Assembly (NCBI GenBank): GCA_025558075.1
Contig: JAHLKF010000015.1
Location: forward strand, 248,001 to 312,000
From: Gaertneriomyces semiglobifer
Taxonomy: Eukaryota; Chytridiomycota; Chytridiomycetes; Spizellomycetales; Spizellomycetaceae
Direction: 5' to 3'
DNA length: 64,000 nucleotides
Positions within the stretch are counted from its first letter, which is position 1, and every line of letters begins with the position of its first letter. The translations under genes and the position numbers were made by a program. Below the pieces are notes generated by a model. That model did no database searches. It had not been told where the DNA came from and saw only the letters and a list, made by a program, of their open reading frames with translations. Of this stretch, positions 6,229 through 63,611 are shown one piece after another.

Positions 6229-9200
6229 ATGTCCTTTGAAGCGAACGTTCATCTCACGAAAGCAAACCACGCAGAAACGAGGATCATGTTGCGAAATAAA
6301 GCATTCGTGCGCAAGACCAAGCGGGGTACCGTCGTCAAGGTGGTTAAGGAGCATTATCTGCGGGATGATCTTTCATGTGGTTGGGCGCATTGTGAACAAT
6401 GTAGTAATAAGGACCATACCCTGACATCGCCGCGAATGGTGCCCGAGATCAGTAATATGCCTCACTACCTTGTCCCTGATACCAATGTTCTTTATCATCA
6501 GGTGAGAGCTTCATAATGTTAGGAAGGCTCGTACCGAATAGTTTCTGACCTTCACTTTCCAGATCGACGTTATGGAACACAAAGTTTTCACCGATGTCAT
6601 TATTCTACAAACGGTTCTAGACGAGTTGAGACATAGGAGTATGGCAGTTTACAATCGGGTTAGAGCCTTAGTTTCTGATCGGACGCGACGTCTGTTCGTT
6701 TTCTGCAATGAGCATCACCGTGATACATATGTTGAGAGAACGCTGGACGAGACACCGAACGATCGCAACGACCGAGCCATCCGGACCGCAGTGGAATGGT
6801 ACAATGCTCATATGCAAGGAGACGCTGTCGCAGTTCTCCTGACGGACGATGCTGCGAATCGAAACAAAGCGATCAGTCAGGGACTCATCAGTTTCTCCGT
6901 TCGGCAGTACGTCCACTTCTTGAAGGATGCCCCCGAGCTAATAGACATGGTTGCAAGCGTTGATGAAGACAACATCGATCAAGAGGATAAGTTCATGTAC
7001 CCGGAACATCTCTCAGCCAATCAGATCTCTAGTGGTCTCAGATCCGGCGCGTTCATACAGGGAAAGCTGACAATCAGTCCAAGCAATTTCCTGGAAGGCA
7101 GCATATTCGCCGAGGTAGACAAGGAAGAACGCTCAGTACTAATAATTGGGCGCGAACATTTAAATCGCGGCATTGACGGGGATGTGGTGGCTGTCCAATT
7201 GTTACCGCGATCTGAGTGGAAGGCGCCAGCAGAAGTGATTATTGAGGAAGAAGAAGTCGAACGCGCAGATGGCGAAGCTGATGCAACGGATGACTTGTCC
7301 GAAGCGATTTTGGCAAACACCCCAAGCCAAGGCGCTTTGCCTACAGGCAAAATTGTCGGAATCATAAAACGCAATTGGCGACCCTATTGCGGGACAATTG
7401 AACAGTCCTCTATGAAAACTGGGAGTAGCCTCTCATCGCAACGGAGTGTATTCTTTTGGGCGATGGACCGAAAGATCCCGAAAATTCGCATCAGAACACG
7501 ACAGGCTGAGACCCTTGTTGGCAAACGGATAATAGTGGCCATTGACGGTTGGGCAAGAAATTCAAAATACCCATTTGGACATTATGTCCGCACTCTGGGA
7601 GAGGTGGGCGACAGGGTTACCGAGACGGAGGTGGTGTTACTTGAACATGACGTACCATTCGCGCCGTTTTCTGCCAATGTACTCAGTTTCCTGCCGCCCG
7701 AAGGCGAAGAGTGGGTGGTGCGAGACGAACACCTGCATGGAAGAGAAGACTTTAGGGGTTTAGACATTTGCAGTATCGATCCGCCTGGATGCACAGATAT
7801 AGATGATGCCTTACATTGTCGTCCATTACCCAACGGCAATTATGAAGTGGGGGTTCATATCGCGGATGTGAGTCATTTTGTAAAACCGGACAACGCTATG
7901 GATCTAGAAGCCCGTCGGCGCGGAACAACCGTTTATCTCGTTAACAAGCGGATCGACATGCTGCCTGGCTTGCTGGGGACTAATTTGTGTTCGCTTCGTT
8001 CGAACGTGGATAGGTTAGCATTTTCGACAATTTGGGAGATGACAGCCGAGGCCGAAGTTGTCAGCGTTCGCTACACGAAAAGTGCCATTCGATCCAAGGC
8101 GTCCCTGACGTATGACGAGGCTCAAGCTAGACTAGATGATCCCACTCTGCAGGACCCTGTCACTATTGGGATCAAGGCACTGAATGCACTTGCCAAAAAA
8201 TTGAGAGGACGAAGAATCCAGGCAGGTGCTTTAACGCTTGCTTCACCAGAAGTGCGCTTCAAGTTAGAGGACGATCAGCAAGATCCAGTGGATGTGGAAA
8301 TGAAGGAGTTAAAAGAGACCAATGCCCTTGTTGAGGAGTTCATGTTACTCGCGAACATTTGGGTAGCGGATAAAATTCACAAGGCATTCCCGGAAACATC
8401 TATGCTCCGTAGACATCCTAAGCCACCGCAATCCAACTTTGAGACGCTCATCAAAGCCGTTAGCGAGTTGGGCATCACATTGGACGTGTCTACGTCAAGG
8501 GCATTGGCAGATTCCCTTGATAAAGCTGTGAGCGCGGATGACGCATATGTCAACAAGCTCATCCGTATCATGACGACCAGATGTATGATGCAGGCCCAGT
8601 ATTTCTGCTCTGGCACGGTGCCAGAAACCGATTTCTGGCACTATGGTCTCGCCACCAGAATATACACACATTTCACGTCCCCTATCCGTCGTTACGCCGA
8701 CTTAATTGTACACAGACTATTGGCGGTGGCAATTGGTTACGATAAATCTTACAAGTCGGAACTCGTCAACAAGACGAGCCTGAAAGAGCTTTCGGATGGT
8801 AAGTTACTATTGAGCCTTGCGGGTTGGGTAGCGTCTCGCTTACTTGTCCTTCGTCCAGTCCTGAATTATCGTCACCGGATGGCACAACAAGCTTCGCGAT
8901 CTTCCGTCGAACTGTTTACAAATCTGTTCTTCAAAGACAAGGTTGTCAAAGAAGAAGGCTACGTTATAAGAGTAATGAAAAACGGTTTTTCGTTGTTGAT
9001 ACCCAAGTACGGCATTGAGGGTTACGTCTACGCAACCCCAGATACTAAAGGCGCCGAGTCTCCTTTCACATATGATGGTGAACGCAACCGCTTGATATCC
9101 GATGAAACGGTTATCCAGCTGTTTGACAAAGTGACCGTCCAAATATCCGTGGAAGAAGCAGGCGGTGCTGCAAGACGCAGTAAACTGACGATGAAATTGG

Positions 9201-9319
9201 TGGAGCCAAGAGTTGCAGGCTTGAGTATCGGTACAGAAAATGTCGCTTCTGATCCGATGGATGTGGACGGAGCGGCTTCTGCAAGGCCCGCAAAGAAAGC
9301 TAGGAAGGATGGTAGATAG
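6229..9319 (+). CDS. DIS3: Exosome exo/endoribonuclease DIS3 (Rrp44)
   Basis: Catalytic subunit of the RNA exosome, with an N-terminal PIN endonuclease and an RNase II/R-type 3'-5' exonuclease. Exons 6229-6501, 6563-8798 and 8859-9319 give 989 residues. The PIN start (PHYLVPDTNVLYHQIDVME) is restored by intron 1. The RNB signature CTDIDDALHCRPLPNG and the segment HFTSPIRRYADLIVHRLLA are present. Intron 2 (8799-8858) is 60 bases and has no in-frame stop, so an uncorrected reading carries 20 extra residues. Removing it restores LNYRHRMAQ, a conserved block. The C-terminal tail is basic and may hold a nuclear localisation signal (PAKKARKDGR). Confidence 0.96.
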
Positions 9320-58542: not shown

Positions 58543-61002
58543 TCAGAGACCTAGCTTGTATTTGGCCAGGTCTTTCACATGGTATTCTTTTGGCACAAAA
58601 GTGTCCTGGGGAAAGCACATCAATGGAACCATCTCCAAACGATCAAAGAGCACGTAAACTTACTAGAAACTCTGCCGGTGTCATTGCCTCGACGCCTGCC
58701 TTGGCTCTGCTGGGTGAAACACCGGTATGGATAGACACAAAATGGCGATATCGGGATGCATGTGAGATTTGTAAAGCCGAAATCATGTAATGTGCTTGTT
58801 CATATAGACTTGCGTCATCGGAAGCAAACGCGGTCAAGGGTACGCGAAGGGTCCCGTTCGCTTTCATCCTCCGCAAGATGAACATAACACTGTTGTCGCG
58901 CCTGTGATTTATTCGTTGGTTAGATGTCGCAATGTGGAAATCCACAATCATGCACTCACAGTGGGGAGGCACATTCTTCAACAACCCGGTGCCACACCAG
59001 TGGATGCAACACACACTCCCAACGCTGAAGGGGTAGTTTGCGGCGCTGAAATGAATATTATGAGCAACGGTCGTGTAAGTTCATTCGCACCAAAGGCCGT
59101 ACTTTCAATAGAAAATTCTCTATCGTAAGCATCCACTTTAGCGCGTCACGCTCAAGAAGCGCTTCAGGTGACAACGTCAGTGCCCCGCTTTCTATCGTGC
59201 AAGTAAGAATGTACCCAATCAAGACTGCGTGATCAAAGTGTACCTCCTGGGAAGACAATGGACACCTCTGGAGATTCCTGCATCGTCGCCAGCGTCGAGC
59301 CCCATTTCAAAAAATGGACGGGGCGCCGCTTTAACTTCGTAAGCTCAGACATGGTTGGGATACGGGAGATGTATGATTGATGAATCTAAAGGATTGGCGT
59401 CAGCAAAATTGGGACCCGCAGGATTCATACGACACTTACAAATACTATGTCGGCATCTAAGGCGTGGTCAACCGTGTGTGCACCGTAATATCCAAGAAGA
59501 CATTTAAATTCTGAGGTATATCGTCCGCTTGGAGCGAACGGCCAGACTCTACTTCCCTTTAGGAATGACTGAAACTAATACGCATTATCAGTTATTGACG
59601 AGAACAGCTGGAGCCTGTGTCGGCATACACATACCTTTTTGGTAACGCCATGGAGCTTCTTATATAGTGCTCGATGGTAGGATTCCAGCAATGAATGGTG
59701 CTCATACGGAAGTTTGGGGAGGTTCAAATATGTGGACCCGAATGCCTTCAAAGCGCACGACACTTTCACAACAGAGAGTTGCAAATGGGCGACCTGGTTT
59801 ATGTCTTGCCGGAACATTTCGTTGGAGTTCTCACTGGGCGCAACGATGGCTAGAAGGGAACCGTGACTGATTAAGCCAACCTTTAAAGGATATCGCGTGA
59901 GACGGCGGAATTCAACTTCACAGTATCGATTCATAGCGGCCAGCCTACCTTCTCCTTTTCTTTCAAGTATTTCGCTAAGGACGACAGTCTTGCTTGATCT
60001 TGAAAATCTTCAGACTCAATGGGTGCTACGAGGAAGTCTTGCGCTGAGTCCCAACTTGCGTACGCTCGCTTCGCGTGATCCAGATCTAGCATGTGCCGAA
60101 GATGTAAACCAGGCAAATGTAGAAGTTCTCCCCAAATTTCTCGGCGGGCTAACGTCTCTGTAGCGCTCTTGGGTGCCGTTAATTTCACCTGGCCTACATA
60201 AACTCCATTCCCTTTATAAAGTATACATCTGTTCCAGGTAACGCGGAGCAATAATGCATTAGTGTAGCATTTTAAAACAACGTTTCAATTAACTACGTAC
60301 CGAACGGGCTCAGCGGTATCTGGCACATGTGATGATCCTGATGATACTTCTTCTGTGCTGCTTGACCTGTGCACACGTCTACGATCTCCTTGATATTCCC
60401 GTTCTCTGCTTCCCTGGCGGCTCCTCCGTTCCGACCAATTGGAGCGACTTTCCGACCTATGGATATCCTGTCCCTTTATCGAACGGCTGGAGGATTGTCG
60501 ACTGCGGGTATCATCTCGCTTTTCGCGGTAATTTCGCAACTCGGACAAGGAAGGTGGACGGGACCGGAGATCTTCCCCAGCAACTTTTCTGGGTACCCTC
60601 TCATCAAAGGATCCGCTGAAAGCCGCGACCGGTTTGCGAGAGGATGAAAATGATTCTAGCTGACGGGCGGATGACCCGCTTCGCGAGAATCTCTCCATCG
60701 AATCGCTCCGCTCGAGATGTGATCGGGGTTTCCCTTTTAAAAGGGAGTTCCCATTGAAGCTCCGTTGCCCAGTCTCATCATTAACGTGCGGCCTTTCTTG
60801 TATATGGGATGTGCTGGACGATACGCTCTCCGCAAATCGCACCTTGAATTCCCCTGAGGCATCACATGGTCATCGTAGGCCAGAATGCGTTAAACAAACC
60901 CTAGCCTAGCATACGTTTAGGCCTTTTCCTATGTTGATCATGATGTTGATCGTTCGCCTTTCGCTTCCCTAGGGCAAAACCGCCTCGATCATCGCCGCCC
61001 AT
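58543..61002 (-). CDS. SPOC-domain protein, TASOR/Chp1-like silencing factor candidate
   Basis: Ten exons in phase: 60915-61002, 60301-60853, 59949-60228, 59635-59880, 59440-59556, 59244-59385, 59103-59191, 58960-59045, 58723-58901, 58543-58658; 631 residues. Residues 1-205 are basic and Ser/Arg-rich (SELRNYREKRDDTRSRQSS). Residues about 210-330 look like a SPOC barrel (CILYKGNGVYVGQVKL, SSLAKYLKEKEKVGLISHG, LLAIVAPSE). The rest (SGALTLSPEALLERDALKWM, then RWECVLHPLVWHRVVEE, then VYVLFDRLEMVPLMCFP) has the order and wording of the region after SPOC in TASOR and, by known structure, Chp1 (a PIN-like domain). Heterochromatin function is inferred. The exon set is firm by phase and intron size. 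Confidence 0.6.
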
Positions 61003-61527: not shown

Positions 61528-62679
61528 TTAATGGCATTCGCTGTTCTCGTGCTGGTAACCACCTTTGGCCTCGTGTATTTGAATGCTATCAGTTCTCTGT
61601 CTGCCGCGCTTCTCCATGTACCTCTCAAACTGGTCAAAGGTTACCCGCCCACCCTCGACGCACCTCATGAGTGTTAACTCCATCCTCATGCGTGTTAACT
61701 CCATGAGTTCGTTCCTTTCCTCTTTGCTTGCTGAGAGGAAGTCGGATGCGTAGTCTCGCTCTTGCGGCCCTTGCTGTGGTTGACCGCTCACCCCTGTGGA
61801 TGCGTACCGCGCGTCCAGTCCTCTTCCCAACGCCCCTCCCACCGCTCCCCCTGCCCCGCCCGCTGCCAGCAGCCCGACAACACTCACGGCCCTCTCCAGT
61901 GTCAAAGTTGCACTGGTACTTCTTACAAAGTGTTTACTGGCTTCGGCTACTCTGTGTAAAGCCCTCTCAACCAGGGACAGCCCGACGCTCTGCATGTGTT
62001 GGTGCTGGTCGTCGGGAAAGAAGGACCCTGTGATTGCGAACGAACTAATGTTAATCCGGTGTCCCGCTCGTTTCCAAAAGTCAACCAACCCGGCCTGCTG
62101 GCTAAACTTACCGCTGCTAGTGGCGCGGGCTGTGCAATGGACCGGCAAAGTGGGAAGGATCGTTGCCGCGTGTGGGATCTGGATTGGGACAACGGCGGCG
62201 AGGGCAAGGTCGATTCTATCGTCCTCAGAGAGCATCACCATGGCCTTGGAGCTCTGCAGTATCCCGTTCTCAACACGGTTGGCCCCCAGCTCCAAGCGCC
62301 TCGCCAGTAGGCCGTTTGCCAGTAGGGCGACATCCATATTCGGAGACCGCACTATGAGAATGGTAACGGTAGCGTAGCGCAGCACCGCATGCGGAATTTC
62401 ATTCGCCCGGAGGATGGACGAGATCTCTGATTTCAAGCCCTCTCTGATGTCCTTGATGACGGTGACCCAGTGGTTGTCGTAACGGTGGGGCGACGGGTAC
62501 AAACGACAGTACTGGTGGAGCCACAACCAGTTGGTGGCCTGCGGAGGTGCTTCGAGCTCCAGCTCTTCAAGAAGGAAGTACCCAGGTGGCGCTGTAGAAG
62601 ACGCCGCGTTGTCGTTGGAAGTAGGAACTGTTATGGAAGCCATGACTGCCGTTGATATGATGGACGAACCAACAGGCAT
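61528..62679 (-). CDS. Orphan single-exon protein, unknown function
   Basis: One uninterrupted frame of 383 residues, unlike its intron-rich neighbours, and visibly more GC-rich. The first third has TNWLWLHQYCRLYPSPHRYDN and helical WVTVIKDIREGLKSEISS. The middle has alternating hydrophobic strands (AVLRYATVTILIVRSPNMDV, MVMLSEDDRIDLALAAVVPI). A Gly/Ala-rich hydrophobic stretch (VVGLLAAGGAGGAVGGALG) is followed by a charged helical tail (SKEERNELMELTRMRMEL). I recognise no family. Start is the first ATG, with a second at codon 13. Confidence 0.6.
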   Translation of the reverse strand: MPVGSSIISTAVMASITVPTSNDNAASSTAPPGYFLLEELELEAPPQATNWLWLHQYCRLYPSPHRYDNHWVTVIKDIREGLKSEISSILRANEIPHAVLRYATVTILIVRSPNMDVALLANGLLARRLELGANRVENGILQSSKAMVMLSEDDRIDLALAAVVPIQIPHAATILPTLPVHCTARATSSGKFSQQAGLVDFWKRAGHRINISSFAITGSFFPDDQHQHMQSVGLSLVERALHRVAEASKHFVRSTSATLTLERAVSVVGLLAAGGAGGAVGGALGRGLDARYASTGVSGQPQQGPQERDYASDFLSASKEERNELMELTRMRMELTLMRCVEGGRVTFDQFERYMEKRGRQRTDSIQIHEAKGGYQHENSECH

Positions 62680-63611
62680 TTGGCATAGGGACCTTGCTCC
62701 CCTTTTCCTCCTTTAAACTGCGAGGGGACCTTCATTTGAGCGAGCGAACGCCTTTCTCCAAACAACGAAGCTTTGCGAAGGTCAACTGATTTTAGCACGC
62801 GTGGCTTAAATACACCGAAGCCATTGTTTGGAGACCATCCCAGAAAGCCTTTTTAGGTGCAGCCCGCAGGATATCATAGTCAGCATGAATATACAAAGTC
62901 AAGAACAAAGTCGGGCCCTACAGTAACGGTATTGCACTGTGTATACTGTACGGCACTACTATAGTACTACCCCGTTTCGAAATGTTACTGCCAACGTTTC
63001 GCCTCCACATGCTCGTCCATAGCGCCAACTGAGGTTAATGAAATGAGTTATGGGTTGGTTGGCCTTGACGTTACATGCTTCTTACACTGATCTCAGCTGC
63101 GGCGATGGTTTATATGTTTCATCGTCGTCACAGGGGATGGCCTAGCTTGCCTTAGAATTAGCCCCTCGTAACGGGATGAGTTCCCAAAACCATGCAATGG
63201 CAGCGACCGACCGACAAATAATGGCACCTCATTCCGGCGGTATAATTAAAGCAGCCCTGGTTCGATTTCAAGATGGCAGAAATTTGGTTGGGTGCTGGCT
63301 GCAAGTATCGCTTGGAGCGGGTGATGCTTGCTGCAGGTTGCGCGAAGGAACTTCACGACGTGTTAGTACACTGTGATCATCTGTTTTGCAGCCGTCTGAT
63401 CCCAGATTACACGCAACATCTGTATCTCAGATAGAGCACTCCCGACGTATACCATCTGCTGCAAACAGGTAGAATCGGACGGTAACGGCATCTGTGTATC
63501 AGTTAATCGCAAGGTCATTACGACCGCGCCTGTGGATCGCAGTTGAACACTGCACTGGCCGAACTCGGAGGAAATCCAGCAGCAGCATACTACCACCACT
63601 GGAGTCAAAGC
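62680..63611. other. Intergenic region upstream of AP-3 mu
   Basis: About 930 bases. A 66-codon plus-strand frame from ATG 63176 (GGIIKAALVRFQDGRNLV) is the best open stretch, but it lacks homology and a partner exon. An overlapping minus-strand frame (63363-63608) is equally unsupported. No repeat or RNA gene was recognised. Confidence 0.35.

Follow-up and report, generated by a model that had tools for sequence, protein, structure and literature searches.

Possibly related scaffolds and the chytrid locus

Two scaffolds of transposon silencing provide the nearest described counterparts of the gene considered here. Chp1, of the fission yeast RITS complex, combines a SPOC domain with a C-terminal DomII/PIN module, and a resemblance between the RITS core and the HUSH core has been reported (Douse 2020, PMC7532188). 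In human TASOR, the scaffold of HUSH, DomI follows SPOC at residues 525-633 and DomII-PIN occupies residues 1233-1466 (Douse 2020, PMC7532188; also PMC7618375). The gene in question lies in a window of 64,000 nucleotides (C15:248001-312000) in the 66-contig, 20.86-Mb genome of the soil chytrid Gaertneriomyces semiglobifer. It runs on the minus strand from an ATG at 61002 to the end of its stop codon at 58543, exactly as placed in a preliminary description made from the DNA letters alone, and the chytrid origin proposed there was borne out by the deposited G. semiglobifer protein BC832DRAFT_116967, to which the product is 100% identical over the aligned part.

With a chance that we put close to, though short of, even, this product may be a nuclear scaffold of the Chp1/TASOR kind, composed of a Ser/Arg-rich arm, a SPOC domain and a C-terminal DomII-PIN module, and having no chromodomain. 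Such a protein would present a disordered basic arm, a SPOC barrel serving as a protein-docking surface, and a DomII-PIN module at its C-terminus; the SPOC domain and the C-terminal module would hold a small silencing complex together on nascent repeat transcripts, while methylated histone H3 lysine 9 (H3K9me) might be read by a separate chromodomain protein, by analogy with MPP8 for TASOR. We only infer DomII, a loss of nuclease activity, the partners, the targets and any silencing function, and the link of the gene to silencing is plausible but not proven.

The N-terminal arm and the SPOC domain

Ser makes up 19.2% of residues 1-213 and Arg 16.4%, and RS/SR steps occur there 19 times, in agreement with the Ser/Arg-rich N-terminus first described. 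The SPOC domain that follows (Pfam PF07744; window 59635-60228, minus strand; approximately amino acids (aa) 215-390, one intron) is the sole Pfam family listed for the full-length protein. It was matched below the curated cut-off of 25 bits with the whole 639-aa protein (15.6 bits, E 0.016), with the SPOC segment alone (18.5 bits, E 0.002) and with HDU85_007065, the related protein of Gaertneriomyces sp. JEL0708 (20 bits, E 7e-4). At the level of sequence, a real SPOC family signal, consistent in two species, is supported, as the preliminary description had anticipated.

The segment YLKEKEKVGLI, whose tyrosine is Y301 of the product, aligns with YLQAKQAAGII of SHARP and YLKQKQAAGVI of RBM15. 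The SHARP chain number of the aligned tyrosine derives from this alignment together with an assumed chain end. On that numbering, the residue corresponds to the conserved phosphoserine-coordinating Y3602 of SHARP (PMC9834408). Since one TASOR (P0093) lacks the YLxxK....G.I pattern and has no SPOC listed by Pfam, the chytrid SPOC is nearer the ordinary kind than that of TASOR.

These features also suit a different explanation, to which we give a real but lesser chance, namely that the protein is a SPOC adaptor of transcription or RNA processing with a Spen/PHF3/FPA-like role, in which SPOC would read a phosphoserine peptide, e.g., of the RNA polymerase II (Pol II) C-terminal domain (CTD), the Ser/Arg arm would place the protein among splicing factors and the C-terminus would be an unrelated lineage-specific domain. 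That SPOC is the only family near significance in Pfam, that the segment shared with SHARP and RBM15, including the phosphoserine-coordinating tyrosine (PMC9834408), is absent from TASOR P0093, and that the arm is rich in Ser and Arg all fit such an adaptor. However, the anchoring arginine of SHARP, PHF3 and RBM15 is, by eye, apparently replaced by Met260, with a Met also in HDU85_007065, and two further SPOC genes of a more ordinary sort, by eye of the TFIIS/Bye1 type and of the RRM-bearing Spen type, are already present in the genome. Compared with Spen/SHARP, RBM15 and PHF3-type proteins, the chytrid product has the YLxxK....G.I segment with the conserved tyrosine, and probably the SPOC core, in common; in contrast to them it carries 245 additional C-terminal residues, and no RRM, PHD or TFIIS-like domain is listed among its Pfam matches.

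A short motif was also noted in the arm, FKVRF at aa 32-36 (within window 60853-60301), which is YKVRF in JEL0708; this pattern is frequent by chance. It resembles the PP1-docking RVxF motif. The matches to Amidase_3 (E 0.17), PTPase (E 0.077 and 0.14) and Bse634I (E 0.096) were dismissed as chance, and NCBIfam gave nothing at E up to 1 for BC832DRAFT_116967 and HDU85_007065. The predicted model of the 403-aa BC832DRAFT_116967 (AlphaFold, two-row alignment, mean pLDDT 33) gave no fold match at E 0.001, an outcome without meaning at that confidence.

The C-terminal region

Beyond SPOC, the product can be divided into a DomII-like region (window 59254-59559, minus strand; approximately aa 395-478, one intron), assigned by position only, and a PIN_TASOR-like region (window 58555-59253, minus strand; approximately aa 479-636, four introns), which is based on profile alignment tests. 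The profiles were drawn from 120 TASOR sequences, those listed among 380 matches, with 61 segments for SPOC, 48 for DomI and 83 for DomII-PIN. Scores were compared with those of shuffled sequences and of decoys, i.e., open stretches in any of the six frames of the window and of fetched loci, with the gene's own loci (L019-L026) excluded and the window's own frames kept; among the decoys are non-coding frames and multiple copies of retroelements, and they form a weak null. About ten scoring schemes were tried, which makes the best p values look better than they are.

Whole-length alignment to the DomII-PIN profile gave a weak signal, equalled by 7 and 4 of 400 shuffles and by 2 and 0 of 89 decoys. 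A post hoc split of this profile gave 1/1000 shuffles and 0/304 decoys for the PIN half. When aa 479-636 were aligned to TASOR PIN with four matrices, 0, 0, 0 and 3 of 500 shuffles did as well, and none of the 304 decoys did with any of them. For aa 395-639 the corresponding counts were 0 and 1 per 1000 shuffles, and 646 and 932 per 1000 with the reversed sequence. Across the whole protein, the best TASOR PIN windows begin at residues 467-482, and the profile picks the last ~160 residues of the product. On the adaptor reading described above, this agreement with TASOR PIN would be due to chance.

Several results weigh on the other side. HMMER and HHalign with TASOR profiles gave no credible match, a block-chain test of the C-terminus failed, alignment with gaps set by secondary-structure elements came out at 50/1000, a reversed aa 215-639 control stood at 8 and 10/1000 against TASOR PIN, and one of 16 control proteins got to 3/150. 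DomII alone was unsupported (43/1000 shuffles), and a swap control scored equally well. The TASOR profile, moreover, misses Chp1 by sequence, and membership of the Chp1/TASOR group is therefore not shown. Free-end alignment to DomII-PIN gave 10/1000 shuffles, but 2/88 and 1/80 decoys, and was counted as negative. Neither PIN_TASOR (PF24630) nor TASOR_alpha-beta (PF23314) matched the protein, its C-terminal pieces or the six-frame genome, and a PDB search with the single sequence returned nothing credible. Two weak matches obtained in the PDB with a three-row profile were unrelated and were set aside.

How much this silence tells can be judged from TASOR itself. The Foldseek search with a TASOR DomII-PIN model returned the Chp1 core 3tix as its top two matches (E 2.4e-5 and 3.8e-5), aligned over 3tix residues 675-956, which is consistent with Douse 2020, whereas the TASOR DomII-PIN sequence profile found no match in the PDB at E up to 10, Chp1 included, so that searching by sequence is powerless over the distance between Chp1 and TASOR. 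As the TASOR profile misses Chp1 by sequence, silence of the curated profiles tells little here. A resemblance of the chytrid C-terminus to the TASOR/Chp1 PIN domain, judged from these alignments, is plausible but weakly supported, odds-on rather than proven. The preliminary description had likened the C-terminus to the segment that follows SPOC in TASOR, i.e., DomI; of this, a weak PIN resemblance survives, and the similar part of TASOR is not that segment but the PIN domain, in the DomII-PIN stretch ~700 residues downstream.

Comparison with Chp1 and TASOR

If the PIN assignment holds, the chytrid protein would have the same SPOC before C-terminal DomII-PIN as Chp1. From SPOC to its end it measures ~425 residues, against 421 and 424 modelled residues in the chains of 3tix. 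It differs from Chp1 in having no detected chromodomain and a Ser/Arg-rich arm instead. No N-terminal chromodomain is listed by Pfam in the 639-aa protein, and an upstream chromodomain exon is not expected, because an in-frame stop lies 3 codons upstream of the ATG at 61002 and the JEL0708 protein has the same start.

With TASOR, the protein would have in common the SPOC fold and, from the alignment tests, a PIN-like tail resembling PIN_TASOR; unlike TASOR, it has no DUF3715 pseudo-PARP domain, no supported DomI and no long middle region, and it stays under all curated TASOR profiles. That it is a strict TASOR orthologue (pseudo-PARP, SPOC, DomI, DomII and PIN, binding MPP8 and periphilin) which has lost some of these parts is very improbable and already disfavoured: the SPOC fold and the PIN-like tail would be common to both, but up to E 10 Pfam lists no DUF3715, although the same library detects it in TASOR P0093; DomI is unsupported (HMMER 0.1 bits; 99 and 48/400, 83/1000 and 27/400 shuffles); the profile of TASOR SPOC is matched weakly (9 and 1/400, 553/1000 and 38/400 shuffles; 6/164 decoys with each matrix); and the domain order is unlike that of TASOR. 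The lack of both chromodomain and DUF3715 noted at the outset was confirmed in the Pfam scan.

As SPOC directly before DomII-PIN is the arrangement of Chp1, "Chp1-like without a chromodomain" fits better than "TASOR-like", and if homologous, the protein would on its sequence be best described as a Chp1 core lacking the chromodomain. The original TASOR/Chp1 label therefore proved half right, a Chp1-like core without chromodomain being plausible and TASOR-likeness not being upheld.

Gene structure

The ten exons join, in consistent phases and across nine GT..AG introns of 52-72 bp, into a product of 639 aa, rather than the 631 residues first given; the number of exons and their phase agreement stand. 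All lie on the minus strand. Exon 1 (60915-61002; aa 1-29, phase 0 start) shares its start and junction with HDU85_007065. Exon 2 (60301-60853) encodes the Ser/Arg-rich region to aa 213, exon 3 (59949-60228) the first part of SPOC (Pfam SPOC at aa 249-322), and exon 4 (59635-59880) the second part with a linker to aa 389; these three are found in both deposited proteins. The DomII-like region begins in exon 5 (59440-59574; aa 390-434), which is backed by BC832DRAFT_116967 and by a third-position bias of the JEL0708 changes, and exon 6 (59244-59385; aa 435-481) is backed by BC832DRAFT_116967, which reads on past its donor. The PIN-like region is carried by exon 7 (59103-59191; SGALTLSPEALL), exon 8 (58960-59045; RWECVLHPLVWHRVVEE) and exon 9 (58664-58901; to MTPAEFL), and exon 10 (58543-58605) carries the stop codon. 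Exons 7-8 contain the C-terminal strings quoted in the preliminary description. None of the deposited proteins found includes exons 7-10, and the basis for these is codon usage and the form of the splice sites.

The two deposited proteins, each annotated as "hypothetical protein", cover the gene unequally. BC832DRAFT_116967 (403 aa) corresponds to residues 82 to ~481 and then continues through the exon 6 donor to its own stop, and introns 2-5 are therefore supported. HDU85_007065 (421 aa; 78% identical, across 42% of the part used in the search) begins with the same MGGDDRG and backs introns 1-3, with 2 residues fewer at intron 2; it reads exon 5 in the wrong frame and does not cover exon 7 onward. 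Where its tail reads exon 5 out of frame, 33 codons were compared and 8 of them differ; of the 8 minimal changes, 5 are at third positions of the modelled exon 5 frame, which gives weak, mild support to that frame. Both species' deposited models appear to be cut off at the C-terminus, and BC832DRAFT_116967 also lacks the first 81 residues.

It could be supposed that the protein ends near exon 6, truncated or without a C-terminal domain, and that exons 7-10 are an illusion of the gene model or a decaying remnant. Both deposited proteins do end before exon 7, and 90 other models that differ at one junction, by no more than 60 nt, also leave the whole frame open, which makes phase agreement weaker evidence than it had seemed and no proof of the exact exon set. 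We consider such a short protein improbable, as the deposited models end at two different places, each in intron or wrong-frame sequence, the match to the PIN profile falls almost entirely within exons 7-10, and codon usage, with stop codons penalised, places the chosen frame top of six in all ten exons, including every one of exons 7-10. That this is a genuine multi-exon gene is clear.

Among 7995 candidates scored, BC832DRAFT_116967 and HDU85_007065 were the only homologues of the product, and a second search, with 567 candidates, found BC832DRAFT_116967 alone; both needed shared 5-letter words, and more distant chytrid relatives could escape them. No paralogue was found in the genome itself, where all eight matches fall within the gene.

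Genomic setting

Components of RNA-directed and heterochromatic silencing are represented elsewhere in the genome. Piwi-domain matches occur at five places, one of them an Argonaute (C15:411244-412207, Piwi E 4.7e-71) on the gene's own contig, ~102 kb away; RNA-dependent RNA polymerase matches occur at three places and Stc1 at two, and an HP1 gene is present (chromo 2.4e-17, chromo-shadow 3e-17). There are 86 chromodomain matches, and those read in L013 and L014 lie within integrase-like frames. Seven, e.g., in L014-L018, share one score (59.9 bits), each in an open frame of 367 aa; L014 reads as an integrase-like frame with a C-terminal chromodomain, i.e., a repeated retroelement. The Pre-SET domain of H3K9 methyltransferases had no match in the genome in a search to which split exons are invisible and whose control was silent too. 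Among 17 SET matches, none of the seven loci read (L029-L034 and L036) was Suv39/Clr4-like by eye, and neither was any of four more that were motif-scanned (L039-L042), a SET-type motif being found in L041 only.

Within the window, a converging, spliced L-serine dehydratase gene (56501 to ~58187, plus strand; SDH_beta 7e-26, SDH_alpha 5e-19 and 3e-22) lies downstream, and a 394-aa open frame without a Pfam match at E 0.001 lies upstream (61531-62712, minus strand), with a 21-bp tandem repeat of two copies at 61663-61704. The window also contains an Rrp44/Dis3 exosome nuclease (6542-9316, plus strand; RNB 2e-104, PIN_4 3.3e-12), whose true PIN domain is unrelated to the gene.

Evolutionary implications

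Searches of open-licence papers turned up no account of a chytrid protein of this kind. In Mucor species, Chp1 and Tas3 are reported absent, with Stc1, Clr4 and CLRC parts kept (PMC12863538), and an early fungus that combines a Chp1-like core with RNAi genes, Stc1 and HP1 would for that reason be a useful comparison point. It can be proposed, as an idea that we hold to be doubtful for now, that the chytrid protein is a scaffold of the RITS/HUSH type reduced to SPOC, DomII and PIN behind a Ser/Arg arm, a separate protein carrying the chromodomain, and that the cores of Chp1 and TASOR derive from one opisthokont SPOC-DomII-PIN ancestor. The question touched is whether the RITS core of yeast and the HUSH core of animals go back to a common ancestor or arose by convergence. 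A chytrid SPOC-PIN protein would stand as a branch between yeast RITS and animal HUSH and, if the proposal is true, animals would have added the pseudo-PARP domain and DomI to the ancestral core, and fission yeast the chromodomain.
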